A DNA stretch of 33,219 nt from a virus, in IMG/VR virus record IMGVR_UViG_3300017952_003070, positions 1-33,219 of that record; one strand, written 5' to 3'. Both the position numbers and the translations under genes were made by a program. Below, piece after piece: positions 8,020 to 31,942 of the stretch. Each line of letters starts with the position of its first letter. The stretch's first letter is position 1. The notes beneath the pieces were generated by a model. The model did not search any database, was not told the DNA's origin, and saw only the letters and a program-made list of their open reading frames with translations.

Positions 8020-8051
8020 TGATTTCTCCCTTGATTTTGGCGTGCGTGGAC

Positions 8052-8058
8052 TATTGTA
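8052..8058. promoter_or_regulatory. Overlapping divergent -10 elements
   Basis: The 7-base core TATTGTA reads as TATTGT (8052..8057) on the plus strand and TACAAT (8058..8053) on the minus strand. The plus element ends 8 bases before the GTG of 8066..8692, as in a leaderless actinobacterial transcript. The minus element lies 33 bases before the ATG of the histone-like gene and leaves room for its ribosome-binding site. The only gap between the two divergent genes is 46 bases. No convincing -35 hexamer is seen on either side. Confidence 0.5.
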
Positions 8059-8065
8059 GCCAGTC

Positions 8066-13412: not shown

Positions 13413-15017
13413 TTAACTACTTGACTTACTATCCCAGTAGTTCTTGACGTACTCGGCTCCGGTCGGACTAAAGAAATCATTGAAAGCATCAATATCATTG
13501 ATGTTGTAATTTCCGTCTTTGGTGCGCTTAGCAATCAGAACGGGTGTGTCTCCGCTGTTATCCCACAAGAAGAATTCATCAAATAATCCGGATGTAATTT
13601 GACGAGGAACAATCGGCTGTAGTTCACGACCAATCTGGCTCCCAAACCATTCCGGGATTATCGCTCCACCATTCTGCCTATTGTCAGCATTTCGCTGAAC
13701 AATCCGGCGATCTGCTTCGTCACCGGGAATATGAACAAAGTGCCCAACAGTTGCATATCCATTTTGACGAGCCATTTGAAGGTGCTCAGTCCTCTTGCCA
13801 GTACCCTGAACGACCATATCGGTTTTTTCCTCAGCCGCTGCTTTCATGGCGTGATCGGTAACTCGTCGTGAAGAATCGTGAACGGCACCAGCACCACGGC
13901 CATTATCCCAGCCAACCAAACCGGCCTTAATCTCATCAGGGTCAATATGTGCAGCAGCATCAGGCCCCGGTATCCCAAATCTGTCATTTCGGGTGAGAGT
14001 TGACTTCCCCGCACCAGTTGTTCCGCCAATGAAATAGAGGGTTCTATCCTCTTTTCCACGATGCTCTGGCATGACTTGTTGCATGATTCGACTCACTTGA
14101 GCACGACCACCGGACCCGGTTTGCTGCGAACGAAGCCCAGAAACACGTAATTTCCGGTGTTTTTCTCTCGCTTCCTGCGACGCTGCTCTTTGAATGTTTT
14201 TTGGTGCCTCGGACATCCAACCGGGCTCCATCTCAATGAGGTCTTTCCATGTTTTCGACTTACCGACACCCTTGGGGATTGCTGGTCTAGCAAAAGCGGT
14301 GCCATCTTGCACCATCCCGTCGTTGTCACCATCCGTGGCATTGGCATCGAAAACAGCAGCAGCCTGACGGATTTTCCTGCCGAGCGCTTTCCCGTGAAGT
14401 TCTTCAAATAGGGAAATTTTACGCTTGTAGCGACCGCGCTTGCGTTCTTCTTCAACGATTCGACGCGCTTCTTGCCGTCGCATTCGTTCTATGTATCGAC
14501 GGCCAAGGGCGGTGCTTCCTGTGCGTCGCGCATAGTCGGTGATGTTTGAACACGGAGTCCATACGACTTGACCGCCAGTGGAACGACGTCGTGCAACTCC
14601 GATACATCCCAGTTGTCGCGCCCTTCGACGTGCTGAGTTGATGTCGGTAAAAACATCTTCTTCTCCGTCACGGGGGATTGCTGATGCAACTTTTCCAGCG
14701 ACAGCGCCCGAAACGAGCCCGCCGCCAGTGATTGTGTCGATTGAAACAACGCCACGTTCACCGAGTTTTTCCCAGTTCTTTTTATTTTTCTTTTTGCGGC
14801 GTTTGCCTTTTCGTTCGCGAACACTTTGGAATTCACGAACACGAGAAAGAACGGATTTTTCTTCTTGCTCGGACTCTTCTTCGGCTTCTAAACGCTCGTA
14901 CTCTTCATGGGTGGAGCATGCCATCCAGCCGCCGTCAGGATGTTTGTGTGCACCAGTGCATCCCAATTCTTTAGCGCGTCGGAGTGCTCGCGCTTTCCCG
15001 GCGGCCCCTTTATTCAT
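13413..15017 (-). CDS. Multidomain protein with C-terminal zeta-toxin-like kinase
   Basis: The 534 residues divide as follows. Two related Cys-pair modules (about 11-43 and 128-165) share R-R-A-x-x-L-G-C-x-G and a second C-S about 14-17 residues later. A Lys-rich linker lies at 66-82. An ALGRK motif (211-215) is followed by the EF-hand-like D-G-D-N-D-G loop (229-234). GLRS is at 294-297. The zeta-toxin-like P-loop kinase spans about 320-500, with Walker A G332-x4-GKS, HIDPDEIKAGL (357-367) and VVQGTGKR (402-409). Zeta toxins phosphorylate UDP-N-acetylglucosamine and block peptidoglycan synthesis. No epsilon-like antitoxin is adjacent, which argues against a toxin-antitoxin locus and for a delivered effector. 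The ATG shares a base with the upstream stop (TGATG). It is the last large gene before the capsid gene. Confidence 0.85.
   Translation of the reverse strand: MNKGAAGKARALRRAKELGCTGAHKHPDGGWMACSTHEEYERLEAEEESEQEEKSVLSRVREFQSVRERKGKRRKKKNKKNWEKLGERGVVSIDTITGGGLVSGAVAGKVASAIPRDGEEDVFTDINSARRRARQLGCIGVARRRSTGGQVVWTPCSNITDYARRTGSTALGRRYIERMRRQEARRIVEEERKRGRYKRKISLFEELHGKALGRKIRQAAAVFDANATDGDNDGMVQDGTAFARPAIPKGVGKSKTWKDLIEMEPGWMSEAPKNIQRAASQEAREKHRKLRVSGLRSQQTGSGGRAQVSRIMQQVMPEHRGKEDRTLYFIGGTTGAGKSTLTRNDRFGIPGPDAAAHIDPDEIKAGLVGWDNGRGAGAVHDSSRRVTDHAMKAAAEEKTDMVVQGTGKRTEHLQMARQNGYATVGHFVHIPGDEADRRIVQRNADNRQNGGAIIPEWFGSQIGRELQPIVPRQITSGLFDEFFLWDNSGDTPVLIAKRTKDGNYNINDIDAFNDFFSPTGAEYVKNYWDSKSSS
14283..14393 (-). 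other. KALGR plus EF-hand-like module (copy 1)
   Basis: These bases encode residues 209-245 of the zeta-like protein. The module is K-A-L-G-R, then about 12 residues, then D-x-N-A-x-D-G-D-x-D-G-x-V-Q-D-G-T and an A-R-P end. The D-x-D-x-D-G core is that of EF-hand, dockerin or Excalibur calcium loops. It recurs at 18488..18628 and 24173..24322. Confidence 0.75.
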
Positions 15018-15400: not shown

Positions 15401-15409
15401 GTCAATAGT

Positions 15410-18400
15410 TTACCCTTCATTGAGGCCATCTACAATTGTCTTTGCTGCTCCGCCGCTGAGCGGTTCGGCGACGTCAAGCACAGCAACACTGCCTCGGTTG
15501 TGAACAAGGAACACGCCCTCGTTTGAGGTGACGTAGTCGTAGCCGAGGATTGGAGCCCAATATCCCTCTCCGCCTGACCATTGCGCCTGCCTCGATTGGC
15601 CGAGCATATATTGAATGGCATTCCACGTATTTTCACGCTTTGTGTCATTCGGGGTCATGCCCTTGTACCTGTCGAGCAATTGGCGAGCCACTTGGATGAT
15701 TTCATTATCTTTTTCGAGGAGACCTTCGAGACCATTGGAGCGGAGTCGTTCCATTACTTGATCAACGAAGTTTGCAGGGTCTTCACCTTGTGCAACTCCA
15801 TCACCTAGTTCATCGATGAGATCTTGGATTTCCTTCATTGCTGGCCAAGATTCATCTGATAATCCCTTGAGTTTATTCCTCTGGATCCTTTTGCCTTCTG
15901 GGTCAATGAAGGCAAGCATGCCAGAACCGTAACCTCCCCAGTGCCCACTCCCCGGAGCAGCCCAGTATTCGCCAACGCCATGTGCTCGTAGATTAGTTTC
16001 GCCGGGCGTGAAACGGTCCAAGTCTTCCTTGTACGAATCTGTGTTTGCTTGTGCTTGAGTTCCCAGTCTGTCAACTCCTCGGTGTAGAACCTGCCAACCC
16101 GCATCGCTGAGGGCCTGCATCTCGTCCGCAGAAATGAGTTCGGGGCGTTGGTTGAATCCTCCGTTTTGCCAAAGGTCTCGAAGGACGCTGTCGCGAACGT
16201 CTGATGAGAGTTCACCTTTTTGACGTTTATCAATATTTGATCCGACGAAGGCAAGGTAATCAACGTACTTGTCATTGACTTCTGGAGCGCCTTCTTTTGT
16301 ACGGGCCAATGGGTGATTTTTCTTCTTTTCGTCAAAGATTTTACGGATCGCTCTTTCGTCGCGTTCTCCTTTAAATCTGCGTCGTGCTCGACGAAGTTGA
16401 CGAGCCAGTTTGCGTCGAGCATTTTGCGTTGCAGAAACGTCAGCCTCTTGACCGCGAACAAGGCCTCCCCGACGAATCGCTTGTGCTCGTTGACGACGAG
16501 CCGCCCGACGCTGTAGTCGTTCAACATTCGGTGTGATAATGCGGTCAGCGAAAGGCCGCTTCCTTTTCGGTTTCCGATTCTTACCGGCGCTACGACCACT
16601 GGCTGTACGGGCTTGATCACCGAAGAACGTTGACGGACCATCAGCCTTCAGTGCACGAACACCCGGAATGCTTGAATCTTCACCCCGAGCGTCCTTGATG
16701 ATCTTGGCACGACTTGCCGGATGCAGGTGCTCCAGCGCTTCGTAGTTGTCGCTTTCCTTCATGTTGCGCAACGTCTTGATGTCGTCCAAAGTTTTCTGCC
16801 ACTTTACGTGGGTTTCCTCCGTGATTTTTTCATCGCGAAGCAGATCGTCAATTTCTCGTTGCGCCAATGGGATGATGTTTCGAGCAAGCGGTTTGTTGTA
16901 ATTCCGCACAACGTTGCCGTCCTCGTCGATTTCGTCGAAATCGCCATCATCTATCATCTTGTTGCGGAACTTTCGCATTCTCGCATCCTGAGTGAGATTC
17001 CGCATCAACTGAACTTCACGCGCCTGTGCAAATTGCTTGAACAAATCGCGTTGGTTGTCATCCAATTGTTCCCAGATTTTTCCGTCGCTTTCACCTCTTG
17101 CGACACCGGGCTTTCCAAGTTTGCGCAGTTGGCCCGAGCGGAGGCTTCGTCCGGTTGTGGTGGGCGTTGCTACTCTTTCCGTTGAGGCAGTACGAGTGCG
17201 AGCACGAGACGTTGCGGAACGCAATCCAGTCGCGCCGGTGCTAGTTGAAGGAATTACTCCGATTCGACCAGTGCCGCGCTTATCGCCGGGTTTCTTGGCG
17301 TTTGCTTCCATGTCGTCCCATGCGGTGTCGCCAAAAATGGTGCGCAGGAAACGTTTCGCCATGTTTTCAGGACGTTGTGGCGTGTCCTTGCCGGGGTGTA
17401 CGTGAATGAAGCCGGCTGCCTGATTTTCGCGGGCTGGTTTGAATTTGCCCCACTGATTACGGACGCTGTCGGGCTGGTCAAGTGTCCAGTCGGACATGCG
17501 GTCGGGTAGGAAAATCCTAACTCTGCCACTGGTGTCAGGCTTGTCGTCCCAAACGAATCCGTTGGCAGCAAGTGTTTGGAAGAACTTCCTGTTTGCCTTC
17601 ATGGCTTTGGGGACGGTTGTTCCTACACCGGTCAATTCGGCATTTCTGTTGGCGGTGTCACCGGTCCTGCTGCGCAGTCCGCTCCGATCACGTGCCGGTG
17701 GTTCTGGGACAACTCGGCCAGAGCGCTCCCGGACTGCACGACGTGGTGGACCACCATCAGCGTTCGGGGTGTTAATGATGCGGTTTTGACGTGCACGACC
17801 AGAACGACTTGTCTCGGGAACAAATCGTTCATTTCGCAACCTGTTGATGAGATCAGGGTCGATACGAGGGTAGTCCTCGTCATCCCCGCGTCGACTTCTT
17901 GACCGAAGGCCATCACCGCCCGGTGCGCGGACATTGATAAGGTCCAAAGAGTCTTCCCATGTTTCGTTTTCGAAACTGAGAACGACACCATCAGGCGTGT
18001 AAACAGTCAACTCATCATTACCACCGAGCGTTTCACCCGGATCATTAAAGTTGCTTTCGGTGTAATCGCGTGCGGTTCGAAGTTCAAAGAAAGAACCAGC
18101 AAGCGGCCCCTCATCGAGTTGGCCTTCGATCCAATCCTCGCTTGAGTAACGGCGCTGACCAAAAATGCTGCCGGTAGGGCTGGATGAGCCACGGCGCGAG
18201 GTCAGACCTTCAATCTCGAGATCATCAATGTCGGTATATTCGAAATCTTCCGGGTTAAAGGTTCTCAGCCAGTCATTGATTTCTTTTTGATTGTCATCGT
18301 CGAAACCCATTTCACGCATGCGATCGGCAAGTTTTTGCTGTCGACTGTTACGCGCCGCTGTAAGCCTGTCCTGAATGCTTTCTCCATCACCCGTCCGGCT

Positions 18401-19255
18401 ACGCATCCCGACATCTGGAGCAATTTCGCTTCTTGCCCGCTGCTGCGTTGGGGTTAAGCGAACGCCACGTCCACCAACTCTGACTGCTGGACGTTCCCAA
18501 GGTGTTCCTTCTTGAACAATTCCGTCCATGTCGCCATCGATTGCGTTCGGGTCGTATGGCTTGAAGGCGCGAGCCGCACGTCTGCCAATGCGCGCACCTC
18601 GACCGAGGCTACGCCCGATTGCTTTTTCCTCGATTCCAACCTGATATCCCGGATGATTTTCTAGGAAGGTTGATTTTGCGTCTCTGATATCCAACAGCGC
18701 ACGTCGAAGATTGCCATGTCCACGAGCCACACTGGACATGTCTTCATTCAGGAAACTGTTATTGCTTGCAGACTTGAAGCCGACAGTTGTGTCGCTGATG
18801 CCGTATCTTTCAAGACGTGACTTCAGCATCACTGACGCTCTCGCAGAGTCGGAGAGGAAAGCGCGAATCTTGTAGTCAACTGCGGTTTGCAGGTCATCCA
18901 TCAAAAATGCTGAAAGCGGCGTGTTTGAAACGGCAGGAAGGCTTGAATTAGCGTCTGTTTTGTGGAAAGACAGTTGCTTCAGTTGAGTTCTGTCTGGGAA
19001 ACGAACAGTGTTGCCGTCAAGCATGTGTTCGACAAGGATTTCCTCGCTTTGAGTCAACGCATGGAATTCTCCGATTTTCACACCATAGGGAAGACCATCG
19101 TCAAGGGACTTAGTTTCGGCGTTGTTGTAAGATTCCGCCCACTTTTCGCCTACACCTGAAACACCTTTGCATTCGGTAAGCCCATTTTCACGGATGACAA
19201 CGCCATAGTAAGACGAGCCGTTAACCATGTCCTTTACTAAAGCGTACTGTTTCAC
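15410..19255 (-). CDS. Giant multidomain protein with C-terminal ADP-ribosyltransferase-like domain
   Basis: The 1281 residues read as a string of domains. An N-terminal alpha/beta domain (1-100) and a helical region come first, followed by KAIGRSL plus the EF-hand-like module (211-256). A beta-rich region lies at 335-445. A compact domain at about 550-640 ends in GFIHVHPGKD and LRTI and resembles HicA. A helical region (725-865) and a very basic linker (890-960) precede the ADP-ribosyltransferase-like C-terminus (about 1045-1265): LHRGV with Arg1059, GEYWAAP, then ILGYDYVTS and FLVHNRGSVAVLD. Disordered linkers hold GMRS (283), GLRS (449, 526, 677) and SLRS (704). The start is GTG, overlapping the upstream stop as GTGA. 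I infer a head-packaged effector, possibly cut at the linkers; individual domain calls are tentative. Confidence 0.85.
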   Translation of the reverse strand: MKQYALVKDMVNGSSYYGVVIRENGLTECKGVSGVGEKWAESYNNAETKSLDDGLPYGVKIGEFHALTQSEEILVEHMLDGNTVRFPDRTQLKQLSFHKTDANSSLPAVSNTPLSAFLMDDLQTAVDYKIRAFLSDSARASVMLKSRLERYGISDTTVGFKSASNNSFLNEDMSSVARGHGNLRRALLDIRDAKSTFLENHPGYQVGIEEKAIGRSLGRGARIGRRAARAFKPYDPNAIDGDMDGIVQEGTPWERPAVRVGGRGVRLTPTQQRARSEIAPDVGMRSRTGDGESIQDRLTAARNSRQQKLADRMREMGFDDDNQKEINDWLRTFNPEDFEYTDIDDLEIEGLTSRRGSSSPTGSIFGQRRYSSEDWIEGQLDEGPLAGSFFELRTARDYTESNFNDPGETLGGNDELTVYTPDGVVLSFENETWEDSLDLINVRAPGGDGLRSRSRRGDDEDYPRIDPDLINRLRNERFVPETSRSGRARQNRIINTPNADGGPPRRAVRERSGRVVPEPPARDRSGLRSRTGDTANRNAELTGVGTTVPKAMKANRKFFQTLAANGFVWDDKPDTSGRVRIFLPDRMSDWTLDQPDSVRNQWGKFKPARENQAAGFIHVHPGKDTPQRPENMAKRFLRTIFGDTAWDDMEANAKKPGDKRGTGRIGVIPSTSTGATGLRSATSRARTRTASTERVATPTTTGRSLRSGQLRKLGKPGVARGESDGKIWEQLDDNQRDLFKQFAQAREVQLMRNLTQDARMRKFRNKMIDDGDFDEIDEDGNVVRNYNKPLARNIIPLAQREIDDLLRDEKITEETHVKWQKTLDDIKTLRNMKESDNYEALEHLHPASRAKIIKDARGEDSSIPGVRALKADGPSTFFGDQARTASGRSAGKNRKPKRKRPFADRIITPNVERLQRRAARRQRAQAIRRGGLVRGQEADVSATQNARRKLARQLRRARRRFKGERDERAIRKIFDEKKKNHPLARTKEGAPEVNDKYVDYLAFVGSNIDKRQKGELSSDVRDSVLRDLWQNGGFNQRPELISADEMQALSDAGWQVLHRGVDRLGTQAQANTDSYKEDLDRFTPGETNLRAHGVGEYWAAPGSGHWGGYGSGMLAFIDPEGKRIQRNKLKGLSDESWPAMKEIQDLIDELGDGVAQGEDPANFVDQVMERLRSNGLEGLLEKDNEIIQVARQLLDRYKGMTPNDTKRENTWNAIQYMLGQSRQAQWSGGEGYWAPILGYDYVTSNEGVFLVHNRGSVAVLDVAEPLSGGAAKTIVDGLNEG
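18488..18628 (-). other. KAIGR plus EF-hand-like module (copy 2)
   Basis: Residues 210-256 of the 1281-residue protein show K-A-I-G-R-S-L, a basic stretch, then Y-D-P-N-A-I-D-G-D-M-D-G-I-V-Q-E-G-T and W-E-R-P. It matches copy 1 at nearly every conserved position. Confidence 0.8.
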
Positions 19256-21207
19256 TTCTGACCTCCGAGAACACGCATCAAAACTTCCCTACTGTCGGTA
19301 AGTACATCAATACGTGTCTTAATAATTTTAGCAATAATGTTCAAGTGTGTCTTCTCCGCTGAGGAGAGTTCTCCATCTGCGTAGAGTTTGTCGCGGAATT
19401 TGGTGAAGTTAAATTCGCGTGCTTTCGCAATGAGTTTGTCGATCTCTTCTTGCATTTGTCGGCGCTGTTCAGCCTTCAAACTCTTATAGTATTTACTGTA
19501 AATGCTGTCGGGTTGCAATGCTTTCATGTCGCGAATCTTTTTCTGGGTACGTTCACGAATTTTGGCATCCGAAAGATCCACGAGTTCACTTTGGGCAAAT
19601 GTCGCAATGAGCGACGACTCATCCCCCTTGTCGAAGATCGCAACCGTGTTGCTGGCGCGACTTTCTATATCCATAACCATGTCAGATACGAAAAGTTTTG
19701 CCACGTCGTCCACATCGAGGTCATTGAATGACTTCTCTTTGGAAAGCGCACCGTCGACGATCTCGGATTCCGGGGTCATGGACAAGTACTTGCGCTTCGA
19801 TGATCCCTTACCGACAAATGCGATATCAACACCGTTGAGTCCGAGGTGGTCTTGGACTGCGGATGACATGGCTTGCGTAATGTGTTCGCCTGACTTGCCC
19901 GAAGTGCGCAGTGTGTAAACCCTGCCATCGGCAGCCTTGTACTTGTCAGTACCTGTCTTTTTGAAGAGATTCGTTTTACCAATCGCTTCTTGCAGGATTG
20001 TTGGGCGGATAGAGGAGATGTCTCCTCCGTCTCGAACTGTTTTTGCGGCGTCTCCAAGCGGATCGACAGTTTCTGAATCTTTCGATCTCGAAACTTTGCC
20101 TTTCCCGGAAAGGATTTTTTGAATCGTGCGACCGCCTCGTAGGCTCTCAACGAGATCGATGCCATCACCGGTCTCATCTGAAACGTATTTCAGGCGTGCA
20201 AGAGGGTCACTTTCGTTATCAACTTTCATCGCCGCGTTCACGGTGCGACCCAACTTGCGTCGCTCACCACGGGTCAATGAACGAACTTTTCGAATCTGAA
20301 CGTAAGATCCGTCTTGAAAAACATACGTGACGTTGGTTACGCCTGTATTTGAAAGAAGCCCAAGTTCTTGGTCGCCAAGGTCTGCGCGATTCTTGGCAGT
20401 CAGAATAAATGTTGCATCAACCATGTCTCGGTTGTCTGGGATGGTTCGAAGAACTCGGGGTGTCACGACTGGCTCGAGAACATATCCGTCACGTCGGACG
20501 AGGCGAGTGGCGTTGATGTCTGGCTTGCCCATCGTTTTGATTACTTCAGCGGTGCTCTTATCGCGATCGGTTTTCTTCGTGGTGGCTGACACGCGCGGAA
20601 TTTGTGCCGCACGAACGGCACGGTCACGATTCACTGTTCCTTGTGAGGCAATTGGCGTAGCGGCAGTTCGCGGTTGGGCTGGTCCTCGAGCGGCGGCTCT
20701 TTGCTGCTCACGAATTGCGCGAATTGTTGCGCCAAGGGGAGATGGAACATCGAACAACTGTTGCCCACATGTCGAGAATTCATTGTCAGTAAAACGACCA
20801 CCGTACTGGAATCCTTCTGGACACCTAGAGGTTCGTCCCCGGCGACGTACACCACGCATACCACCGGGTTTGCCGGGAGTCAGGGCACGAGCAATTCCTG
20901 ACCTGATTGGGCTGCGGTAAGGGGAAATATTTCCGGGGGTGGCAATGGTTCCGATTGCTTGGGCTGCTTGCCCCAGACGGCTACTTGACCCGATTGCGCC
21001 AACTCGTTTGACGTCATACTGGCGAATATTCCCGTTTCGTTTAGAAAGTGCTTTAAATTGCACGAGTTCTTCACGATTTGCGCGAGTTTGCCGGAGGTAA
21101 CGAACGTTTTCTTTCTGTTCGAGTTTGGCGATGATCGTTCTTTTCACGCGAACACTTGGACACGCTTCACAATCAACTTCTTTTTCGTAAATGTATGAAG
21201 TGGCCAT
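19252..21207 (-). CDS. Multidomain protein with Cys module and possible kinase-like fold
   Basis: This is a 651-residue protein. The N-terminal part has C-x2-C at 13-16 and a basic region. Residues 128-150 carry the module R-C-P-E-G, G-R-F-T-D and C-G-x-x-L-F, with Cys129 and Cys147. The C-terminal half could be a divergent HipA/PI-kinase-like fold: a strand-rich start (GRVYTLRTSGKSG, 428-440), helix and strand DHLGLNGVDIAFVG (453-466), hinge RKYLSMTP (472-479), and FVSDMVMDIESRASNTVAIFD (506-526), in the place of a D-R-x-x-N catalytic loop. The metal-binding Asp is not obvious, so it may be inactive. The rest is helical. The ATG overlaps the upstream stop (TGATG) and the stop overlaps the next GTG. 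A virion-associated role is inferred from location and shared modules. Confidence 0.85.
   Translation of the reverse strand: MATSYIYEKEVDCEACPSVRVKRTIIAKLEQKENVRYLRQTRANREELVQFKALSKRNGNIRQYDVKRVGAIGSSSRLGQAAQAIGTIATPGNISPYRSPIRSGIARALTPGKPGGMRGVRRRGRTSRCPEGFQYGGRFTDNEFSTCGQQLFDVPSPLGATIRAIREQQRAAARGPAQPRTAATPIASQGTVNRDRAVRAAQIPRVSATTKKTDRDKSTAEVIKTMGKPDINATRLVRRDGYVLEPVVTPRVLRTIPDNRDMVDATFILTAKNRADLGDQELGLLSNTGVTNVTYVFQDGSYVQIRKVRSLTRGERRKLGRTVNAAMKVDNESDPLARLKYVSDETGDGIDLVESLRGGRTIQKILSGKGKVSRSKDSETVDPLGDAAKTVRDGGDISSIRPTILQEAIGKTNLFKKTGTDKYKAADGRVYTLRTSGKSGEHITQAMSSAVQDHLGLNGVDIAFVGKGSSKRKYLSMTPESEIVDGALSKEKSFNDLDVDDVAKLFVSDMVMDIESRASNTVAIFDKGDESSLIATFAQSELVDLSDAKIRERTQKKIRDMKALQPDSIYSKYYKSLKAEQRRQMQEEIDKLIAKAREFNFTKFRDKLYADGELSSAEKTHLNIIAKIIKTRIDVLTDSREVLMRVLGGQK
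20758..20826 (-). other. Cys-pair FTD module (copy A)
   Basis: Residues 128-150 of the 651-residue protein contain R-C-P-x-G, then F-T-D about seven residues later, then a second Cys and L-F. The same order of residues appears in the 2342-residue protein at 31268..31456. Confidence 0.65.
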
Positions 21208-21842
21208 CAGTCACATCCGCAATCTTCGGTTTTCACGAATGTTGCCGAAATTTCATCGCCGTTTTCGTCGTCTCCGACGATTTCCCAGTTTTCGTAATCT
21301 CTGATATACGAGACGAAATCAGGTTCCATGTCCATGAAGTCTGACAAAACGGACATCGCATGCTTGAAATCTGTTTCGGTAACTACTTGATTATAGTCGA
21401 AATCTGTTTCAAGTTCTTTACGTTCAATAAAATCACCGTAGAACATGTCATCAACTTGATGATCAAAGATAGATTTCTTGTTCTTTTTGAAGCGTCGAGC
21501 CATCCTCTTGCTCCAGTCGGCATCAGACCAGTTCCGCTTCTTGAGTTTTCCTCTACAGTTTTTCATTCCGGGATGGTGACATCCCTCATTGGGCCAAAGA
21601 CCGGTTGTCTCATGGTGCAGCCAAGCACAGATTCGTTCGAGTGGGTAAAGTTCTGGGTGGTCCGCAAGAATTACACGACACCTTCTGAATCCACCCGGCT
21701 TTTTCATGATGGGACGCCAATAGCGCAACAACCTCTCAAGGTTGCCGCGACGCGGTCCCCTGCCGCCAGTAATCGCCGTGACTCGTTCCTGTGGAAGGTC
21801 GAGGATTACATCTTGTGGGCCTTTGACTTCGATTTCATCCAT
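21207..21842 (-). CDS. Unknown protein with Cys/His-rich segment
   Basis: The 211-residue protein has a basic middle. ERLLRYWRPIMKKPGGF (36-52) is followed by RVILADHPELYPLERICAWLHHETTG, WPNEGCHHPGMKNC and a Lys/Arg-rich stretch, then a long acidic C-terminus that ends CGCD. The H-H-x-x-x-G and C-H-H pattern (about 76-97) could bind a metal, and the RLLRYWxPIMKKPGGFRRC type of opening looks familiar from phage head regions, although I cannot name a family. It is preceded by a 33-base gap with a possible TATTCT element and shares a base with the next start codon. A role in head assembly is inferred from position only. Confidence 0.8.
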   Translation of the reverse strand: MDEIEVKGPQDVILDLPQERVTAITGGRGPRRGNLERLLRYWRPIMKKPGGFRRCRVILADHPELYPLERICAWLHHETTGLWPNEGCHHPGMKNCRGKLKKRNWSDADWSKRMARRFKKNKKSIFDHQVDDMFYGDFIERKELETDFDYNQVVTETDFKHAMSVLSDFMDMEPDFVSYIRDYENWEIVGDDENGDEISATFVKTEDCGCD

Positions 21843-21875
21843 GGTGTATCCAGTTTAGAATAGATAATGATGATG

Positions 21876-24700: not shown

Positions 24701-24921
24701 TCTTCAACCTCACGCAGCGCCATGATGTAGGTGTTTTTGTAAAGATCGATTACTTCACTGACTTGTGGCAGCGCAGTAAAGATCTGCTGGAGGTACGGTT
24801 CAACGTCGGGGTCTTTATCAAGCAGTTCACGAACAGCGCTGGTTTCCATGTACTTCAAGTACGTCTGGCTAGGCTGAAAACGGATGCCGTCATCTCCGGT
24901 GGTGACTCGTTTGCTATCCAC
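24697..24921 (-). CDS. Small protein between giant genes
   Basis: The frame is open further upstream over the end of the giant gene, but a GTG at 24919..24921 preceded by GGAG at six bases gives a compact 74-residue product. It overlaps the giant gene by 8 bases and the next gene by ATGA. The product is acidic and helical (ETSAVRELLDKDPDVEPYLQQIF, split by short turns) and ends ALREVEE. It resembles short tail-assembly or chaperone-like helical proteins in size only. Its position between a giant effector-like protein and a metalloprotease-like one suggests a chaperone or adaptor, which is a guess. Confidence 0.7.
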   Translation of the reverse strand: MDSKRVTTGDDGIRFQPSQTYLKYMETSAVRELLDKDPDVEPYLQQIFTALPQVSEVIDLYKNTYIMALREVEE

Positions 24922-27900
24922 TGATCGCTCCAAATTCTGTTTCCAACTTCTCAAGAACCCACTGTGTTCTTTCTTCCGGTGATAGGCCGATAGGAATGTC
25001 CATGTCGGCACCAAGCACTTTGGCGCGTTCCAAGAGGCGATCCCATGGTTTTGCCTCAGCCCACTCTTGACCCGTATACGTTGTGTCTTGCAGGATTGCT
25101 GCCGAGCGGTTCAGAATGACAACGCGGTTATCATCTCGTGTCTCGGAAATTGTAGCGTCATAGCCCAAGAGCAACGGAATTACTGTCCGTCCGTTAACTG
25201 ATCCTCCGTCAAACTTTGCTGGGTCGGTTGAATCAACAATCGCCGAATCTAACGCTTCCAACAAATCGGCCTGAGATGGGTCGTTCACGAGGCTGCGCCT
25301 CAGGGCGATCAGAGGGTTCGCTTCCCCTCCTGCACCAACATCCTCACCTAGAGTTTCCAACCGGTATTCTTCAGCCATTCGTGTTGCAGCAGAAATTTGC
25401 ATTACTTTCGCGCCGGGGTTTAGCGCGCCACGGATAACAGAAGCATCTGATACGCCTTCGATGTAGCCGTCGGCCTCGTGATGTCCGCCACCCAGTCGGG
25501 TGGGGCTTGTTCCTTCGATAGCGAAATAGAGCCCAGCACCGTCAATGCCGCCTCCGGTGAGGAATTCTTCTGACGAATCAAGGGTTGCGCGTTGCATGTT
25601 GTTGGTAGCACCACGTGAGATTGGCATAAGTCCACGGGTGGCTAGAAGAAGATCCATTTCTGCTTCATTTACAGTCATTGCTGGCGCGTCATAACCTCTG
25701 CTTCTAATGAGCGCTTCGGTAAGTCGCGCTCCGACCAAGCCTCCGGACTCTCGCCATATTTCATTGACGTCCCAGTCTGCGGGGGGTGGGTTAAGGGCGT
25801 AAACATCATTCATCCAGTTGCCGATCCCCTCCTTGATGATGGGGGTTCGTTCCTGAATGAGGCCAAGCCATTTGGTGATGTTTTCGTTCTCGAGCAGGAG
25901 CGTGCGCAACTCATCACGGTGTTCTGGCAAGGTGAGGTCGGCAGCGGGAGCGACAGTCTGTTCTGCGATTCGCTGGACCTCTTTGGGGTCACGAACAATG
26001 CCTTGCTGTGGGGCGTGTTGTCTGGGATCGATTTTGGCCGCTTGTGTGGTTGTGGCTTTTCCAACTGGTGCAGTTCTATCAATTTCTTCTGTCAGACGGT
26101 CAGCGGTAACCATTTCGTATCTAGCCAGTTCATTGATTACTGACTCAAGTTCTTGCCTGCGTGTTTCCACTTCGGATCGACGATTTTCTCGCTCGGTGAT
26201 AGTTGCTTGGCGCTGATTGAATTCGGTTGTAAAAATCGTTGAATCTGCAAGGATCTCATCGAGACGTTCGCGTGCTTGCGCAGCGGTGTACTGAGGCGGC
26301 GTTTCTGGAACTTCTTCTGGACCGTCAGAGAATGGGTCGTTTGCTGTAGGCCTTCTTGGTGGTGGTGCGCTTGGCCTTCTTGGTGGTGGACCACCAAATG
26401 GGTCATTCGTATCAGTGACTTGATCAGGTGTCCTCCGTTGCATGATGTCAAACCGGAAGGCGTCAAGTTCTCGCATCTGCTCGGATGCCGCGAGCAGTTC
26501 CCCAACGCGTTGCTTCTGTTCGTCAGAAAGCGGCATATCGCCCAGTTGCTCGCGTACTCTGTTGGCAATATATGAAGGAATGCTGTCAGTGATGTCTTCC
26601 GCATATTTGCGTGGTTCACCAGTGAGAAGATCGGGAGTTTCTATATCGCCAATAATGTCTCGCAACTCTTCTGCCATGATGCTCACGTGGTTATTAGGGT
26701 TTCTTGAATCTGGTTGCGTAAGGGTTCGCAGTTCGTCGGCCAATTTGTTGATGTCGTCATCAGATTCAATGTCAAAAATTGGTTTCGACTGTGCGAGAAT
26801 CGAACGCCCAGTTTGAGAGCGAAGCCCTCCACCGGAGATAGGTGCGAACGGATCATTCGCGGAGAATGGGTCGTTGGGTGTGGACGGAAGAGCAGGAGTA
26901 TCGGCCGTGCGACCCCTATCAAAAATGTCCCCAACACGATCACCAAGGTCAAGTTCACGCACACGTTCAGCGGCGGCGCTTGCGATTTCCCTAGCACGAT
27001 CGGCTGCGTCTGAGTTGATGGCTCGCTGCGCTTGTTCACCAATTGCGTTCGTCACCGCATCAGGAAGTCCTTCTGGTGCAACGGTGTCTGCGGCGCGCAA
27101 GATTGCGTTGGCTTGGCTGTCGGTGATCCAACCTTGTTCGCGTGCTTTGCGAACACCAAAATCGATTCCTTCACGGCTTCCGCGTCGAGCGAGAACCAAT
27201 CCGACGCCGGCCGGTCCGGAAGTTCCGAAGGCAGCAGCAAGTTCACCGACAAAGCGGATGTTCTCAATGTCGTCTGTCTCAAGTCCGGCCCGACGAAGCA
27301 AATTTTCTGCTCGGTCCGATTGAAGAACGTTCATGCCAACTCTTTGTATGCCGCGATTCTGAACTTGACGACGGGAAAGTTTGGCTCCCAGACGGCCAAT
27401 CTTCTCTGTTGCAAGCGCCGTTGCTCTTTCGCTTACTTCGTCGCGAATACGGTCGGTGACAACAGTCCGTGCTCGGTCAACCACACCGCCAAATGGGTCA
27501 TCACTAAAGGGGTCAACGACATTGATTGGGGCGTCTCGGCGTGGTGAAGAGGTTGCTGAACGAAGACCAACACCAGATCGAATTTGTTTGGCAATGTCTT
27601 CTGCGCGCTCGGCGATTTCTCCCTCAAGGCGTACACGCAGGATGTCGTCGGCACGCTTGGATGCTTCGATGCGGCCAATACCCGGTGTTTCTACCGATAC
27701 CGAAGCACCATCAAGGACGTTAATGCCCTTATCGTTGGTGAAAGTTGTGCTGATACCGACTCTTGCGAAACGGTCTGCCTGTTCCCGTGCTGCTTTGTTC
27801 ATTCGTAGCAAGTCGGCTGATTCGAGGTCGAGGCGGCCGCTTTGAGCGAACTCAAACACGGTGTCTACTTCAGTTTTAGAGAGACCGGCAAGACCGAGCC

Positions 27901-30900
27901 TCTTGCGGAGTTCGCTGTTGTTCGCGCCGACTTCTGCTGGTGCTAGGAATTGACGTTTGTAGTTCAGTGAAGCACTACCGATTCGAACATTTTCTAGTTC
28001 TTCGCCGTTGAATCCGCCTGCGATAAATGCATCTGCGTCTACTCGTCCACGGATAGTTCGATCTCTGACGTCTACGCTGAGGCCAGCGTCAAGGGAAAGG
28101 GTGTCCATCGGGGTTCTGATTCCCGAGTAGTCACCGGTCAGGTCTGCGTGCAAGAAGTCCAATGCTGCGCCTGTGGTTGCGGTGTCGTCAATAGGTCCGC
28201 CAAATCGACGTGTCAGGAGTGCTTGACGGACACGCGCTGGATCGTCGTCGTGAATCATGACGCCAAACGCGATTTGACCTCGTGCATCACCAATTCCGTA
28301 TCCGGTTCGGCGAGCGACATCGGCACGAAGAACCAATTCGACATCTCCGGTTAGGACTTTGCCGAGTGGCGACTCAGTTACCCGATCGAAGAACTCCGAG
28401 TCTCGAATAGCGGCGTAACCCTTGATGTTGTCCAAGTAGCGTTGAATGGCGCTGTCATCGTCAGCGTGCAGCAGATTGCCGAAGAGTGGACGAATTCCAT
28501 CATCTGGAGTGAACCCTTGCATGGCATCTTCAGCATCAAGGAACGGATCCCACTGAGAACCGCGTGGCGGGATGAGGCCACGTGAGTCCCCTGTGTCAAT
28601 GATGCTCTGAAGGCCGTCCATGTCGGTCCGGTATCGTGGGCGTGAATCGAAACCGTTGTGGTACTCCATTACAGCGCGTTCAATACGCGCACCGATTTCG
28701 CTTTGGCGGGCGGTCTCTAGGAATTCTCTGACTTCATCAGTTGCTTCCAATGCTCGACCAAATCGCCCAGTTGTTGGTCGGCCACGGAGATCTTCGATAG
28801 TTTCGAGCGCACGTCCGTAAGCCTCTTCTGCTTGGGCACGGGTGAATGGTGGACGTTCACCGGGTCTTACAGAGCCCCAGATGCGTTCGATATCTCTGTC
28901 GGTTACGCGGAATGGGTTTGCTCCACGTTGCCGAATTTCTTCGACAATCGCCGCATTGCGCCGCTCCATACGTTGTGCGGTGGCCGGGTCGCTGGATCGC
29001 GTGGCTCGACGAATCTTTTCCTTTTTCTGGACGTACTTCTGCGCCCGTTTCTGAACTGTTCTTACAGCATCGCGAACGTCGTCTATGTCGGAACTTCCAT
29101 CAAGACTGTCGATGAGGCGACGAGCAACGGTGTCGGCATCATCTTGGCTGCGGGGAACTAGCGTGACAGTTCCATCTGGGTTAACAGAACGGACTTCGTA
29201 TTCTCCGCCGGGAATCTCAACCTGATCGGGCTCGTTGTTCGCCGGGTTTTGTTTTTCGATGCCTTTTGTTCCCTTAGGTAGAACAAAGTTGACTTTCCGT
29301 TTTCCTTCGTCAGCCGAAAGGTCTTGTTCTTGATCAGCATCCATGCGGCGATCAAGTGTTTTGAATCCTTTGAATCGGATGGCATCGCCGACCTCGAGAT
29401 CCCCAACATCGTCGATTTCTCCTGTTGCTGCGATGTCCTCAGCAAGTACTTCGCGGTCAATGATTTGCTGTTTCTTAACCGTCAGGTTTTCAATGTCGAG
29501 AGCGGTTTTGCCACTTCTCAGTTGTTCGACAACGTCATTGCCGTTCTGGATTTCGACGACTTCGCTTCTTGGATCAAAAAGGTCTCTTTCGGCGTCGGGA
29601 AGACTGCGATTGAGACTTGAGATGCGTGAATTGATGGCATCGATATGTTCCTGTTTTCCGCCAAGGTCAGGAATGAACGGGTTTGGATCTTCAATCGGGG
29701 TGCGGCTAATTGTGTCCCACGTTCCATTGGGATCCGGCTGGAACACTTGCATTGCTGAACTTGTCGGCGGCGGCCAGATAACTCCTTGCGGATCAGGGCG
29801 TTCCGGTGTTCTGGGGTCAACGTCGTCCATCCATGACACGAGTCGGTCGAGTTCTGGATCCATGAGGACACCCATATCTCGAAGCGCGCGCAATTCTGTC
29901 ATGCCTTCGAGCATCATCAATGCCGACTGTCCTCGTTTGGCATCATCATTCAAGTTGAAGAAATTTTGAACTTCGTCTTGGTAATACCTTCCCGCCATGA
30001 TGTGAAGCATTGTTCCTTCGAACGTCTCAAGCGACGTCGGTGGGAAGCCATCGGCGAGGTACTTTTCTGGGATAAGACGTTGAACCTGACTCGTCACCAC
30101 ATCAACCCATTGCTGGTTAGTCCACTGATCGGGAGAAACGTCGAGCCGTTCAATTTGACCTGAAGTTGAGTTGACTAAGTAGGTGGAGCCTGTTTTGGCG
30201 TGGGTGTCCAAGACGGCATTTTTAATGAACTGGTACTGGCGGGCGTGACCAAGTTCATGTTTTGCGATATGCACACCCTTTGCTTCGATTGAGCCGTGGC
30301 GTGCGGTAGAAAGGTCTTGAGCGTAAACATTTCGCCACCGTTCAAGATCGACGGTGTTCTGCATCAGGTTTCCGATTTCGGCCCACTGTTCGGCTTCCGA
30401 AGTGAATGAGCGAGACACATCGTTGGGGTCGATATCGAATAAGAGGATGCGGCCGTCAGAAGTGTAATTTGCTAGTCCGTTTTGGATTGCTGGTTTCAGA
30501 GCCACTGCTGCCGCGTTGAAGTCAATATTCAGAGCGAACCCATCTCTGGGGTGGAAACCTGCCGGGCTGCATTCTCCATCTACTCGCCAATAGTCATCAA
30601 ACGCCTCGCCATCACGGATTTGCGTTCGGCCTAGCGTCTTTACTTGACGCATGATTTCCGGGGATTCTTGATACTCCTGAAGAATCGCCTTTAAGAAGCC
30701 ACGCTCTGCTGCCAGATGGCGGGTAACCATTTCGTCAATGAGGGCTCTGGCTTCGGGGTCTCCATCTCGGTACCTTTGGCGCATTGGGCCGTCCGACACC
30801 CAGTTGTCAAACATTGAGATGTATTGGCTACGAACGTCGGCAGTGTGATCTGCTGCTGCTTGAGGAGTGCGACCCTTTGGGTCGGCAAGCATGTTTTTGT

Positions 30901-31942
30901 TCCACGAACCCCAGCCTTCCGGTCCGGAAAAAATCCCTGAGAAGTCAAGGTCTTGCCATTCATCGGCGGCCAGCGTTGCCAGCGCGGTCCACATGTCGGC
31001 ATTGTCTGTGGTGTCGCGAGTCGTTCCAAGTCGTGTTTGGAGGGCATCAATTGCGGTGTCCATTCGGGATTGAACTTCTTGGACGCGTTCTTTTGGCGCA
31101 ACACTTCCAGCAGCCCGAACCATGTTTCGGATGTTTTGCCTGTATTGAGGGGTTAGGTCGTCTGGCCCGACACCGTATATGCCCATGCTTTCAAGCAGTT
31201 GGATTTGTTCTCCGAGTTCAACATATTTGTCGAACCACCGACGCATCGCTCCAATGAGTCGACGCGAGGAGAGTGCTGGTTTGAAACAGTTTGTACCAAA
31301 TTCATCGGTGAACTGGTTGGCTGCCGGAGTTCCGGGCGGGCATCGGAATTTCCCGTTTGCGTCAGTTAGTACTCCAACTGCCCCAGCCGCACGTGAGGAC
31401 AAATTCCCTCCGGGAACAATCTGGTTCAGTTTTCTGCCGAGTCCTTTTACTTCGACATCGACACCGGAATCCTCTACTCGTTGACCTGTTCTTGGGTCAG
31501 CACGAAAACTCCTGACGCGAACTTTGGGTCGGCGCTTCTTCCAATCCAACAGTTCACGCATTTGTTTGCGTGTTTCCTCTTCGGATTTTTTCTCAGGAGC
31601 AGGAATCCAACCAAAGTTTGGTTCGTTGCCAGTTGTGAGGTCGCGTGGGGTTACATGCAGTTTGAGTACGTCGCCACGGCCACGTTTGCCGTTAGGCGCA
31701 TAGCGAAGTTCGGGGAGTTGTTCTTCAACTCCCGTACCAGAAGTGCGCTTCTCAGAATCTTTTTTATCTTTTTTGGGAAGATCCTGATTTAACGCTTTTA
31801 CAGAGATGTTTGGGTCAAGGCTCTCTTGGGAAGCAAGTACCGCACTCTTTATCCGAAAGAGAGCACCAATGGTTTCGTAATCACGTCGATAGGTGTTGAC
31901 GCGATCAGAAAGTATTACTCGTTCGGCCCGGATGTTGGCCAT
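24914..31942 (-). CDS. Giant 2342-residue multidomain protein (metalloprotease motif, ADP-ribosyltransferase-like)
   Basis: Domains in order: K-G-L-G-R-K-L (166-172) and the Cys-pair FTD module (200-221). A helical region leads to H562-E-L-G-H566, a zinc-protease motif. A beta domain (845-930) has GDAIRFKGF, VLPKGTKG and Q-V-E-I-P-G-G, like the second half of ADP-ribosyltransferase exoenzymes. A region at 1090-1230 has RPLFG and VELVLRADVARRTGYGIGD, somewhat like DUF3626. GLRS sites occur at 1459 and 1706, and six DPF tripeptides at 1477-1871. A coiled-coil lies at about 1885-1955, and an ADP-ribosyltransferase-like C-terminus at 2100-2290 (ISRGA with Arg2110, GAGLYFA, LLGYDATIS, VVILNRSAAIL). 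No membrane segment is seen. The ATG is 23 bases after the scaffold-like gene. I infer a packaged polyprotein-like effector; a tape measure is unlikely because long hydrophobic or uniform helical regions are absent. Confidence 0.85.
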   Translation of the reverse strand: MANIRAERVILSDRVNTYRRDYETIGALFRIKSAVLASQESLDPNISVKALNQDLPKKDKKDSEKRTSGTGVEEQLPELRYAPNGKRGRGDVLKLHVTPRDLTTGNEPNFGWIPAPEKKSEEETRKQMRELLDWKKRRPKVRVRSFRADPRTGQRVEDSGVDVEVKGLGRKLNQIVPGGNLSSRAAGAVGVLTDANGKFRCPPGTPAANQFTDEFGTNCFKPALSSRRLIGAMRRWFDKYVELGEQIQLLESMGIYGVGPDDLTPQYRQNIRNMVRAAGSVAPKERVQEVQSRMDTAIDALQTRLGTTRDTTDNADMWTALATLAADEWQDLDFSGIFSGPEGWGSWNKNMLADPKGRTPQAAADHTADVRSQYISMFDNWVSDGPMRQRYRDGDPEARALIDEMVTRHLAAERGFLKAILQEYQESPEIMRQVKTLGRTQIRDGEAFDDYWRVDGECSPAGFHPRDGFALNIDFNAAAVALKPAIQNGLANYTSDGRILLFDIDPNDVSRSFTSEAEQWAEIGNLMQNTVDLERWRNVYAQDLSTARHGSIEAKGVHIAKHELGHARQYQFIKNAVLDTHAKTGSTYLVNSTSGQIERLDVSPDQWTNQQWVDVVTSQVQRLIPEKYLADGFPPTSLETFEGTMLHIMAGRYYQDEVQNFFNLNDDAKRGQSALMMLEGMTELRALRDMGVLMDPELDRLVSWMDDVDPRTPERPDPQGVIWPPPTSSAMQVFQPDPNGTWDTISRTPIEDPNPFIPDLGGKQEHIDAINSRISSLNRSLPDAERDLFDPRSEVVEIQNGNDVVEQLRSGKTALDIENLTVKKQQIIDREVLAEDIAATGEIDDVGDLEVGDAIRFKGFKTLDRRMDADQEQDLSADEGKRKVNFVLPKGTKGIEKQNPANNEPDQVEIPGGEYEVRSVNPDGTVTLVPRSQDDADTVARRLIDSLDGSSDIDDVRDAVRTVQKRAQKYVQKKEKIRRATRSSDPATAQRMERRNAAIVEEIRQRGANPFRVTDRDIERIWGSVRPGERPPFTRAQAEEAYGRALETIEDLRGRPTTGRFGRALEATDEVREFLETARQSEIGARIERAVMEYHNGFDSRPRYRTDMDGLQSIIDTGDSRGLIPPRGSQWDPFLDAEDAMQGFTPDDGIRPLFGNLLHADDDSAIQRYLDNIKGYAAIRDSEFFDRVTESPLGKVLTGDVELVLRADVARRTGYGIGDARGQIAFGVMIHDDDPARVRQALLTRRFGGPIDDTATTGAALDFLHADLTGDYSGIRTPMDTLSLDAGLSVDVRDRTIRGRVDADAFIAGGFNGEELENVRIGSASLNYKRQFLAPAEVGANNSELRKRLGLAGLSKTEVDTVFEFAQSGRLDLESADLLRMNKAAREQADRFARVGISTTFTNDKGINVLDGASVSVETPGIGRIEASKRADDILRVRLEGEIAERAEDIAKQIRSGVGLRSATSSPRRDAPINVVDPFSDDPFGGVVDRARTVVTDRIRDEVSERATALATEKIGRLGAKLSRRQVQNRGIQRVGMNVLQSDRAENLLRRAGLETDDIENIRFVGELAAAFGTSGPAGVGLVLARRGSREGIDFGVRKAREQGWITDSQANAILRAADTVAPEGLPDAVTNAIGEQAQRAINSDAADRAREIASAAAERVRELDLGDRVGDIFDRGRTADTPALPSTPNDPFSANDPFAPISGGGLRSQTGRSILAQSKPIFDIESDDDINKLADELRTLTQPDSRNPNNHVSIMAEELRDIIGDIETPDLLTGEPRKYAEDITDSIPSYIANRVREQLGDMPLSDEQKQRVGELLAASEQMRELDAFRFDIMQRRTPDQVTDTNDPFGGPPPRRPSAPPPRRPTANDPFSDGPEEVPETPPQYTAAQARERLDEILADSTIFTTEFNQRQATITERENRRSEVETRRQELESVINELARYEMVTADRLTEEIDRTAPVGKATTTQAAKIDPRQHAPQQGIVRDPKEVQRIAEQTVAPAADLTLPEHRDELRTLLLENENITKWLGLIQERTPIIKEGIGNWMNDVYALNPPPADWDVNEIWRESGGLVGARLTEALIRSRGYDAPAMTVNEAEMDLLLATRGLMPISRGATNNMQRATLDSSEEFLTGGGIDGAGLYFAIEGTSPTRLGGGHHEADGYIEGVSDASVIRGALNPGAKVMQISAATRMAEEYRLETLGEDVGAGGEANPLIALRRSLVNDPSQADLLEALDSAIVDSTDPAKFDGGSVNGRTVIPLLLGYDATISETRDDNRVVILNRSAAILQDTTYTGQEWAEAKPWDRLLERAKVLGADMDIPIGLSPEERTQWVLEKLETEFGAISG
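26349..26389 (-). repeat. Direct 17-bp repeat, proline-rich linker
   Basis: Two identical 17-base units (26349..26365 and 26373..26389, period 24) encode P-P-P-R-R-P twice in the giant protein, between two NDPF motifs. They probably arose by local duplication in a disordered linker. Confidence 0.75.
31268..31456 (-). other. KGLGR plus Cys-pair FTD module (copy B)
   Basis: Residues 163-225 of the 2342-residue protein: K-G-L-G-R-K-L, about 25 residues, then R-C-P-P-G-T, F-T-D and a second Cys followed by F-K-P. It joins the LGR motif of the EF-hand proteins to the Cys module of the 651-residue protein, which links the two module types. Confidence 0.7.

Follow-up and report, generated by a model that had tools for sequence, protein, structure and literature searches.

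Giant modular proteins of a phage head operon, probably packed in the virus head, carry a phage-specific linker peptide

A cassette of giant proteins between a scaffold-like gene and the capsid gene

We studied a 33,219-base virus record, IMGVR_UViG_3300017952_003070, which is probably a fragment (the window, meaning this whole stretch), and in it a cassette at positions 13413-31942 whose open reading frames (ORFs) all lie on the minus strand between a scaffold-like ORF and the capsid gene. The cassette encodes giant proteins of 534, 1281, 651, 829 and 2342 amino acids (aa), in genome order, and four small ones (127, 211, 112 and about 74 aa). Reading of the ORFs and the match of the capsid to phrog_10 confirmed this layout of five large and four small proteins with scaffold-like and capsid flanks, which a preliminary description, made from the letters of this DNA without database searches, had proposed. 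Copies of one short peptide stand in the linkers of the 534-, 1281- and 2342-aa proteins, and related phages have words of their own; this linker peptide is a new, testable feature overlooked by the preliminary description. We propose that a giant multi-enzyme set is probably packed in the head of this virus. The genes of the locus are:

11945..13261, minus strand: major capsid protein of the HK97 type (438 aa), bounding the cassette on its downstream side (phrog_10, E 2.4e-67)
13413..15017, minus strand: 534-aa giant with two DUF3721 repeats, a DGD tag, a linker site and a zeta-type P-loop domain
15017..15400, minus strand: 127-aa small protein (family F9, in 12 of 26 related records)
15410..19255, minus strand: 1281-aa giant, GTG start
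19252..21207, minus strand: 651-aa protein (family F3, in 26 of 26 records), no linker site
21207..21842, minus strand: 211-aa small protein (27 profile matches; phrog_6439, E 4e-5, function-less)
21876..22214, minus strand: 112-aa small protein (family F12, in 6 of 26 records)
22211..24700, minus strand: 829-aa giant with a DGD tag and a HEMTH metallopeptidase-like domain, no linker site
24697..24921, minus strand: small protein of about 74 aa, GTG start
24914..31942, minus strand: 2342-aa giant with a conserved N-terminal half, a HELGH domain, two linker sites and an ADP-ribosyltransferase (ART)-like C-terminus
31966..33219, minus strand: acidic scaffold-like protein, 417 aa here, truncated by the end of the window (520 aa in a longer record)

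The smallest ORF was listed by the tool as 105 aa from a TTG; an in-frame GTG stands at 24921, just past the stop of the 2342-aa gene. The scaffold-like ORF has no family match and is labelled from its acidic make-up and its place. G001, a longer record (99,771 bases) of this same sequence, shows the preceding genes; they encode a protein that we take from its appearance to be portal-like, a 566-aa protease, a protein of 907 aa and the scaffold-like protein at a length of 520 aa. The 566-aa protein contains Peptidase_S78 (Pfam, E 4.1e-12) and DUF6321, so that a prohead protease gene of the S78 type lies upstream of the scaffold-like gene in a head operon context.

Relatives of the capsid were found in 437 stretches of the viral collection, from which 80 loci were kept and 36 records examined. 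The capsid is present in all 36 and the scaffold-like gene in 30, at a distance of 8,690-32,380 bases where both occur; because the slot is kept between both boundary genes across 30 of 36 related records, the arrangement exceeds chance. We read the slot in 26 of these 30 records (G006, G020, G023 and G028 were left out as presumed near-duplicates), and its content varies among phages apart from the 651-aa family. The F2 gene ahead of the capsid, where present, encodes from 207 to 3,927 aa. Compared across these records, the giants are shown to form a swappable set between the scaffold-like and capsid genes; in many of them, conserved N-terminal parts and a shared tag (DGD or RCP type) are followed by predicted payload modules on linkers.

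A phage-specific peptide in the linkers

The copies of the linker peptide in the window are:

14127..14138, minus strand: GLRS, between tag and zeta domain of the 534-aa giant
17216..17227, minus strand: GLRS, 1281-aa giant
17669..17680, minus strand: GLRS, 1281-aa giant
17900..17911, minus strand: GLRS, 1281-aa giant
18398..18409, minus strand: GMRS, 1281-aa giant
26816..26827, minus strand: GLRS, 2342-aa giant
27557..27568, minus strand: GLRS, 2342-aa giant

Tetrapeptide counts in the 26 records revealed linker words that differ from phage to phage: GLRS/GMRS, GFAS/GLAS/GFSS, LSSG, PLGSR and ISGRM. In 18 of the 26, a record's own word exceeded expectation with p about 1e-7 or less, with the pattern for each record chosen after seeing the data and the patterns of a first cross-count looser than the later ones. 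The 18 motif records hold 279 sites in 62 proteins, a count from which the eight records without a clear motif are excluded, and the table of genomes by motifs is nearly diagonal. Across the 26 records, the pattern G[LM]RS occurs in none of the portal-like (18), scaffold (29), capsid (26) or F3 (26) proteins. In nine records used as whole-record controls, each record's own motif is absent from the portal-like, scaffold, capsid and 651-aa proteins, and 1,082 other ORFs hold 8 sites versus 8.35 expected. Further giants of these nine records hold 28 sites versus 0.30 expected and 24 versus 0.65, in groups that were named after the matches had been seen.

The 279 sites are written in 236 distinct codings (the lowest shares being 22/38 in G012 and 21/36 in G017), their flanks are 11% identical, and 5 of 2,616 flank pairs are at least 50% alike; selection therefore acts on the peptide. 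The same counts rule out an origin at the DNA level through duplicated repeats, and a composition effect was ruled out by shuffling. The sites also fall in poorly conserved stretches, with a homology depth of 3.1 compared with 5.06 +/- 0.28 in 2,000 permutations. In six proteins from three records, none of 46 sites lies inside a Pfam domain, about 4 being expected from domain length, and in a 3462-aa protein of G015 single sites separate NUDIX, helix-turn-helix (HTH), DnaJ and Zeta domains. The limits of our profile segments had partly been cut at motif positions and were therefore left unused as evidence that the sites stand between domains.

The letters of the peptide switch between phages at corresponding places. 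In alignments of proteins from different motif classes, made after the motif letters had been masked, the partner's own motif was found within three residues of the site in 22 of 155 cases (12 distinct pairs) versus 61 of 3,100 random aligned positions, and within the same class in 178 of 336 versus 131 of 6,720, counts in which each pair enters in both directions and some alignments are non-orthologous. One example with kept flanks reads GPSASEYGFSS in G026, GPSASEYGALGSR in G034 and GPTADEFRGLSSG in G032. Such a concerted change of letters across genes, at places that remain the same, would be expected from a common recogniser acting in trans. Among the titles and abstracts of the open literature, where subscription papers are mostly outside, we found no paper on genome-specific linker peptides in head proteins. 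At S78 loci outside the 26 records (L202, L216-L223) we saw further repeated words such as GPVG, which suggests, from the sequences, that there are more motif classes.

Tags and domains of the giant proteins

Two short tags recur in otherwise unrelated proteins of the cassette:

14286..14348, minus strand: DGD tag DANATDGDNDGMVQDGTAFAR, 534-aa giant
18491..18553, minus strand: DGD tag DPNAIDGDMDGIVQEGTPWER, 1281-aa giant
24173..24235, minus strand: DGD tag DPDALDADGDGWVQEGTQFAR, 829-aa giant
20767..20826, minus strand: RCP tag RCPEGFQYGGRFTDNEFSTC, 651-aa protein
31286..31345, minus strand: RCP tag RCPPGTPAANQFTDEFGTNC, 2342-aa giant

The DGD tag has a consensus of about FDPNAxDGDxDGxVQEGTPFxRPA, and the RCP tag (RCPxG...FTD...C) is characteristic of the families of the 651-aa and 2342-aa proteins. 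By a profile built from 23 tags that are themselves among those counted, the DGD tag is present in 39 of 380 cassette-region proteins; of 1,100 proteins from other parts of the nine records, 7 have it, all of them longer than 1,200 aa. With a simple pattern, 11 of 23 records also show it in their S78 protein. Both tags may be loading signals. G024 and G027 each have a further tagged giant some 10 kb past the capsid on its downstream side (L145:8355-17690, 3,112 aa; L165:9378-19013, 3,212 aa); these have ten linker sites each, and the first, from G024 and the sole one scanned, contains NUDIX and DUF3626.

The domains recognised in the giants of the window are:

13671..14051, minus strand: Zeta_toxin domain, 534-aa giant (PF06414, E 7.3e-9, above the curated cut-off)
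14538..14639, minus strand: DUF3721-like copy 2, approximate limits, 534-aa giant (internal repeat by profile)
14907..14996, minus strand: DUF3721 copy 1, 534-aa giant (Pfam PF12518, E 7.4e-10, two stretches)
15470..16369, minus strand: C-terminal domain of the 1281-aa giant with R-G, GxGEYW and LGYD...NR, weakly ART-like
16622..17146, minus strand: conserved helical domain of the 1281-aa giant without functional match (13 matches; helices in an AlphaFold2 (AF2) model)
18578..19255, minus strand: conserved N-terminal domain of the 1281-aa giant (28 matches in 24 genomes or loci)
23447..23461, minus strand: HEMTH, 829-aa protein (HExxH in all 7 sequences aligned, that of the window among them)
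24917..25975, minus strand: C-terminal ART-like domain of the 2342-aa giant, homologous to the 1281-aa C-terminus
30245..30259, minus strand: HELGH, within a metallopeptidase-like domain (about 29768-30460) that is conserved, 2342-aa giant

Both the zeta-type P-loop and the two HExxH motifs noted in the preliminary description stand, the former as GGTTGAGKST within the Zeta_toxin match and the latter as the conserved HEMTH and HELGH (in the 2342-aa family, HExxH is kept in at least 90% of 24 aligned sequences, window included). A Pfam scan matched the window proteins to no recognised metallopeptidase family, and profile searches against PDB sequences gave nothing usable for the HExxH domains, the kinase-fold domain or the 1130-1460 domain.

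The 651-aa protein is predicted to have a HipA/CotH-like kinase fold, with a putative kinase activity. In an AF2 model of residues 200-651 (predicted local distance difference test, pLDDT, 88), the C-terminal part (about 19273-20010) resembles CtkA (Z 14.1, 3.7 A, 213 aligned), CotH (Z 13.7) and HipA (Z 12.4), and Foldseek gave six chains with E <= 0.001 (best E 2.8e-5). Asp509 and Arg517 are invariant in 23 aligned relatives, window included, among which the usual Asn of the catalytic loop was not evident by eye.

The R-G and L-G-Y-D...N-R C-termini, which the preliminary description assigned to the ADP-ribosyltransferase type, are present in both proteins and conserved in relatives of the 1281-aa one, but their assignment to ARTs is weak. 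Comparison by hhalign shows the two to be homologous (96.6%, E 6e-10); R-G and the Y of GxGEYW are invariant in all 14 aligned 1281-aa relatives (window included), and LGYD...NR is conserved. A Pfam scan of these 14 sequences and a PDB profile search returned nothing relevant, and by alignment, no template having been mapped, no conserved acid was seen in the last strand, where N-R stands. In structural comparisons of an AF2 model (pLDDT 76), 14 of the 50 listed VIA rows are ARTs of the PARP or exotoxin-A type at Z 3.6-5.1, the best of them (Z 5.1, 4.0 A, 134 aligned) lying under the tool's safe level. No entry in the Foldseek PDB list reached E <= 0.001, eight in BFVD did, none of them functionally named, and the PDB lists were headed by helical and calcium-dependent-kinase matches (Foldseek) and by Cas12b (VIA). 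Catalytic ART activity thus finds no support in the sequence matches, the ART-fold scores or the last strand, and we call these C-termini weakly ART-like rather than ARTs. Region 770-960 of the 2342-aa protein resembled an ART end as well, and was dropped when no test supported it.

By itself, the window provides one curated activity domain (Zeta), with the HExxH domain and the ART-like C-terminus in the 2342-aa protein; MPTase-PolyVal and ArdC-N were not found in its proteins by the Pfam scan. Relatives add to this. A 2281-aa relative of the 534-aa protein in G012 combines Zeta, pentapeptide repeats, ArdcN (PF08401, E 6.4e-25) and MPTase-PolyVal (PF18818, E 7.9e-43), another G012 giant carries RNase_T, giants of G036 and G015 carry NUDIX, sigma-70 region 4 or HTH, DnaJ and Zeta, and KTSC also occurs among the modules (all by Pfam). 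Six further giants (926 aa in G012; 784 aa in G036; 1264 aa in G015; 1270, 1107 and 1050 aa) had no domain above the Pfam cut-off or no match. Chains with several disparate activities and hallmark domains of phage polyvalent proteins thus occur in the relatives, and a late location among virion genes in 30 of 36 records; the cassette proteins are best read, from their domains and place, as polyvalent proteins.

The zeta domain of the 534-aa protein is homologous to that of ORF030 of cyanophage P-SS2 (BLASTP 3e-13), a protein of about 1500 aa (17648-22147; L270:4708-9207) with MuF and Zeta domains by Pfam. According to Table 2 of PMC2784084, purified P-SS2 virions yielded on average 96.5 peptides of ORF030, which places it among the top two proteins by peptide count. 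Thus one giant of this kind with a zeta domain is part of a virion. ORF030 is called the major capsid protein in that paper and a minor head protein in its sequence record. A phmmer search with a P-SS2 segment gave no match, and the ORF030 C-terminus resembles the ART-like domain of the window weakly (hhalign probability 20%).

Distribution, host and neighbouring genes

The family is large in environmental data, with 192 stretches of the viral collection related to the 651-aa protein besides the 437 related to the capsid. A comparison with 50,697 phage records gave no match at E 0.01 for four of the five giants of the cassette; the 534-aa giant matched solely the three records of cyanophage PSS2, over the zeta part. 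The capsid matched 977 phage records, all below 60% identity, with Brevibacterium phage Cantare at the top (51%), followed by Gordonia phages. These capsid matches and a WhiB gene in the window suggest that the host is actinobacterial. A relative of the 651-aa protein (42% identity) lies on a 12-kb contig, L271, labelled as a Phycisphaerae metagenome-assembled genome; it could be a virus contig binned with a Phycisphaerae genome. The cultured capsid relative Gordonia phage Gray encodes a separate VIP2-like ADP-ribosyltransferase between portal and protease (L269:5731-6819; PF03496, E 9.5e-14). Collagen-like GATG/GPTG repeats are abundant in G017, G024 and G027 (GATG 105 times in G017).

Auxiliary genes beyond the capsid in the window encode a carbamoyltransferase (138-1580), proteins matching 2-oxoglutarate (2OG)-Fe(II)-oxygenases (1969-2685, 6342-7004), a primase/helicase (3822-5597), the WhiB protein (5597-5932) and a plus-strand ribonucleotide reductase (9128-11053). 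Positions 6985-7662 gave just a weak endonuclease V match, and a lysine/alanine-repeat protein (7681-8238) gave none.

Proposed mechanism and alternatives

We propose that the conserved N-termini and tags would take the chains into the prohead with the scaffold and the protease, that the linker peptide would be recognised by a factor acting in trans, for which the S78 prohead protease of the same phage is the likeliest candidate, that the chains would be cut into separate effectors (kinases, metallopeptidases, DNA mimics, nucleases and ART-like domains), and that the freed effectors would leave the head together with the DNA and disarm or reprogram the host cell. That the giants are virion-packaged effectors is very likely in our judgement. 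If they are packaged, the linker peptide is likely to be recognised in trans at the protein level; such recognition, in turn, would rather favourably be explained by proteolysis, which fits best because the sites separate modules, lie in poorly conserved linkers and change in concert; and, given proteolysis, we lean somewhat towards S78 as the protease. About packaging, recognition and proteolysis taken jointly, whichever the protease, doubt slightly prevails. The complete scheme, in which polyproteins are loaded into the head by tags and cut at a dozen copies or more of one peptide by the capsid maturation protease into ejected effectors, with motif and protease changing together, is put forward tentatively, as rather less likely than not.

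The preliminary description had taken the cassette for virion-carried effectors acting on the host at infection, larger than the known cases. The first part gains indirect support from the place in the head operon, the polyvalent domains of a relative and the presence of P-SS2 ORF030 in virions, and neither modelled stretch matched solely tail or baseplate folds, the outcome that had been named as speaking against it. The effector reading is well supported for polyvalent proteins as a class; for these phages it is a prediction. The second part holds for the whole cassette but not for single proteins, given the virion RNA polymerase of phage N4 with about 3,500 aa.

Peptidase S78 belongs with the herpesvirus assemblin, whose sites fall between Ala and Ser. 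Its position beside the cassette, its own copies of the motif, this kinship and the Ser preference of gp245 of phage SPN3US make S78 the natural candidate. The S78 protein carries its own phage's motif in 12 of the 23 records that have it (three of the 26 lack S78 in the stretch covered) and in 12 of 15 motif-class records with S78. The head substrates of SPN3US gp245 are cut behind a single motif, AXE, and Ser is favoured at P1' (PMC10052503); Ser likewise holds the fourth position in four of the five motif classes described here. In these 12 records the motif stands in a long C-terminal extension of the S78 protein (e.g., L090:4445-9382 and L123:351-7223); in the phage of the window, the protease (566 aa) and a motif-bearing 907-aa protein are separate genes.

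Several observations weigh against this scheme. For these phages we found nothing that directly shows packaging, cleavage, ejection or activity, and the lack of cleavage data also speaks for the docking alternative considered below. The region EFK[SAT]L, which we take to be where an HK97-type capsid cut would fall, was tested for a change along with the motif and failed. Between motif classes the S78 domain is strongly conserved, and inspection by eye showed no column that separates them cleanly; the S78 proteins of G001 (the phage of the window), G015 and G035 are without the motif. Trees of S78, capsid, scaffold, F3 and the N-terminus of the giant (15 records each) all need five motif changes, so that tree comparison cannot tell the partners apart. 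The 829- and 651-aa proteins of the window are without the peptide. Eight of the 26 records (G013, G018, G019, G022, G025, G029, G031 and G036) have no clear motif, and in four of them another word (PGDS, PAKK, PxAP, AERL) reaches p about 1e-7 or less; p alone is therefore not specific, and the case rests on the further tests. The share of sites without homology cover was not raised (0.265 versus 0.244, P 0.19). A count of switching made without masking (92/287 versus 140/5,740) came out too high, since the alignment program tends to match letters that two motifs have in common; the masked count given above replaces it. Finally, tape-measure-like proteins, a group set by homology in the nine control records, carry the motif as well (12 seen versus 1.5 expected), which points to recognition outside the head too. 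The presumed tape measures, labelled from size and place with a sub-threshold Gly-zipper match in one, have their own phage's peptide in six of the nine records (L171:79-4224, L141:11612-15955, L147:14704-19254, L163:10814-15487, L175:687-5546 and L186:1-4188), and a seventh has it by a loose match.

The peptide could instead be a docking motif, with copies that bind the surface of the capsid, the scaffold or a carrier, as encapsulin cargo peptides suggest by analogy, and with chains that are ejected whole. Multiple copies in flexible linkers, genome-specific letters and selection at the protein level all fit docking, and so does the finding that neither the capsid region nor the S78 domain follows the motif; the N4 virion RNA polymerase is packaged unprocessed (PMC5512222). 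However, the motif also occurs in tape-measure-like proteins, which would not be expected in the head, the copies stand between modules, as in the 3462-aa protein, and the N-terminal tags are already candidate loading signals. We regard docking as the main rival and a serious one, though less likely than cutting.

The chains might also be cut, but not by S78, through a metallopeptidase module of the giants or a host protease acting before or after ejection; this share of the proteolytic reading seems improbable to us. It would account for the conservation of HExxH in the 829- and 2342-aa families and for the tape-measure copies, which fit a protease acting outside the prohead, and autoprocessing by MPTases has been proposed for polyvalent proteins (PMC5512222). 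However, the specificity of a host protease would have to change between similar-looking phages (GFAS in G026 and PLGS in G034, whose S78 and capsid are alike by eye), and a metallopeptidase module is called into question by the lack of a recognised family among the window proteins. That the giants are ordinary structural or morphogenetic proteins with low-complexity linkers and incidental enzymatic look-alikes would agree with the head-operon location, with F3 occurring in every record, as a structural part would, and with the weak ART-like matches, but is very improbable, as the payload differs among phages and includes ArdC-N, MPTase-PolyVal, zeta, exonuclease and NUDIX, and the peptide enrichment survives shuffling.

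If cutting at the linker peptide is borne out, many unrelated enzymes would be delivered with few loading signals and one protease, and the phage's own peptide would be a sequence handle to find and delimit effector modules missed by domain databases. What fills phage heads, and how these contents are processed, would become testable from sequence. If, in addition, motif and protease change together, payloads would spread as motif-flanked cassettes that must adopt the motif of the new phage.

Comparison with known systems

P-SS2 ORF030 is like the 534-aa giant in its homologous zeta domain and is a virion-abundant giant, but has a MuF domain (PF04233), which a Pfam scan of ten proteins of the window, with matches taken up to E 1, did not find. 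MuF polymorphic toxins (PMC12226406) share with the window family the association with phages and a variable C-terminal toxic domain; according to the available text they differ in the MuF domain, which the window is without, and relatives of the window carry several payloads per chain. In T4, Alt is a head-packaged ADP-ribosyltransferase injected with the DNA, with an R-S-E active site (PMC5512222, as far as available), whereas no such site is shown for the C-termini of the window. The Dar proteins of P1 (DarA, Hdf and DdrB) are internal head proteins ejected with the DNA, with an anti-restriction role; DarA is cut by the prohead protease at its N-terminus, and the available text of PMC12810830 describes no string of modules. 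In SPN3US, one phage-specific motif likewise recurs in several head and ejection proteins; however, in the part of PMC10052503 at hand, cutting at 13 of the 14 known sites takes off an N-terminal propeptide, the remaining site serves to remove the C-terminus of the protease itself, and none is reported to free modules.

The closest likeness is to the polyvalent proteins of PMC5512222, giant multi-domain proteins near virion genes with MPTase, ArdC-N, ART and kinase modules, which are predicted to enter with the DNA and for which an analogy to polyproteins, with processing, has been proposed already. Their ARTs are H-Y-D relatives of PARPs and of the cholix and diphtheria toxins, a description with which the C-termini of the window, as modelled, would agree in the direction of the fold matches alone. 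Processing there is ascribed to embedded MPTases and to assemblin-like peptidases at C-termini, and the available text mentions no repeated linker peptide; the window family differs in having, between its modules, a peptide of each phage's own that is common to its giants, and in its recurring tags.

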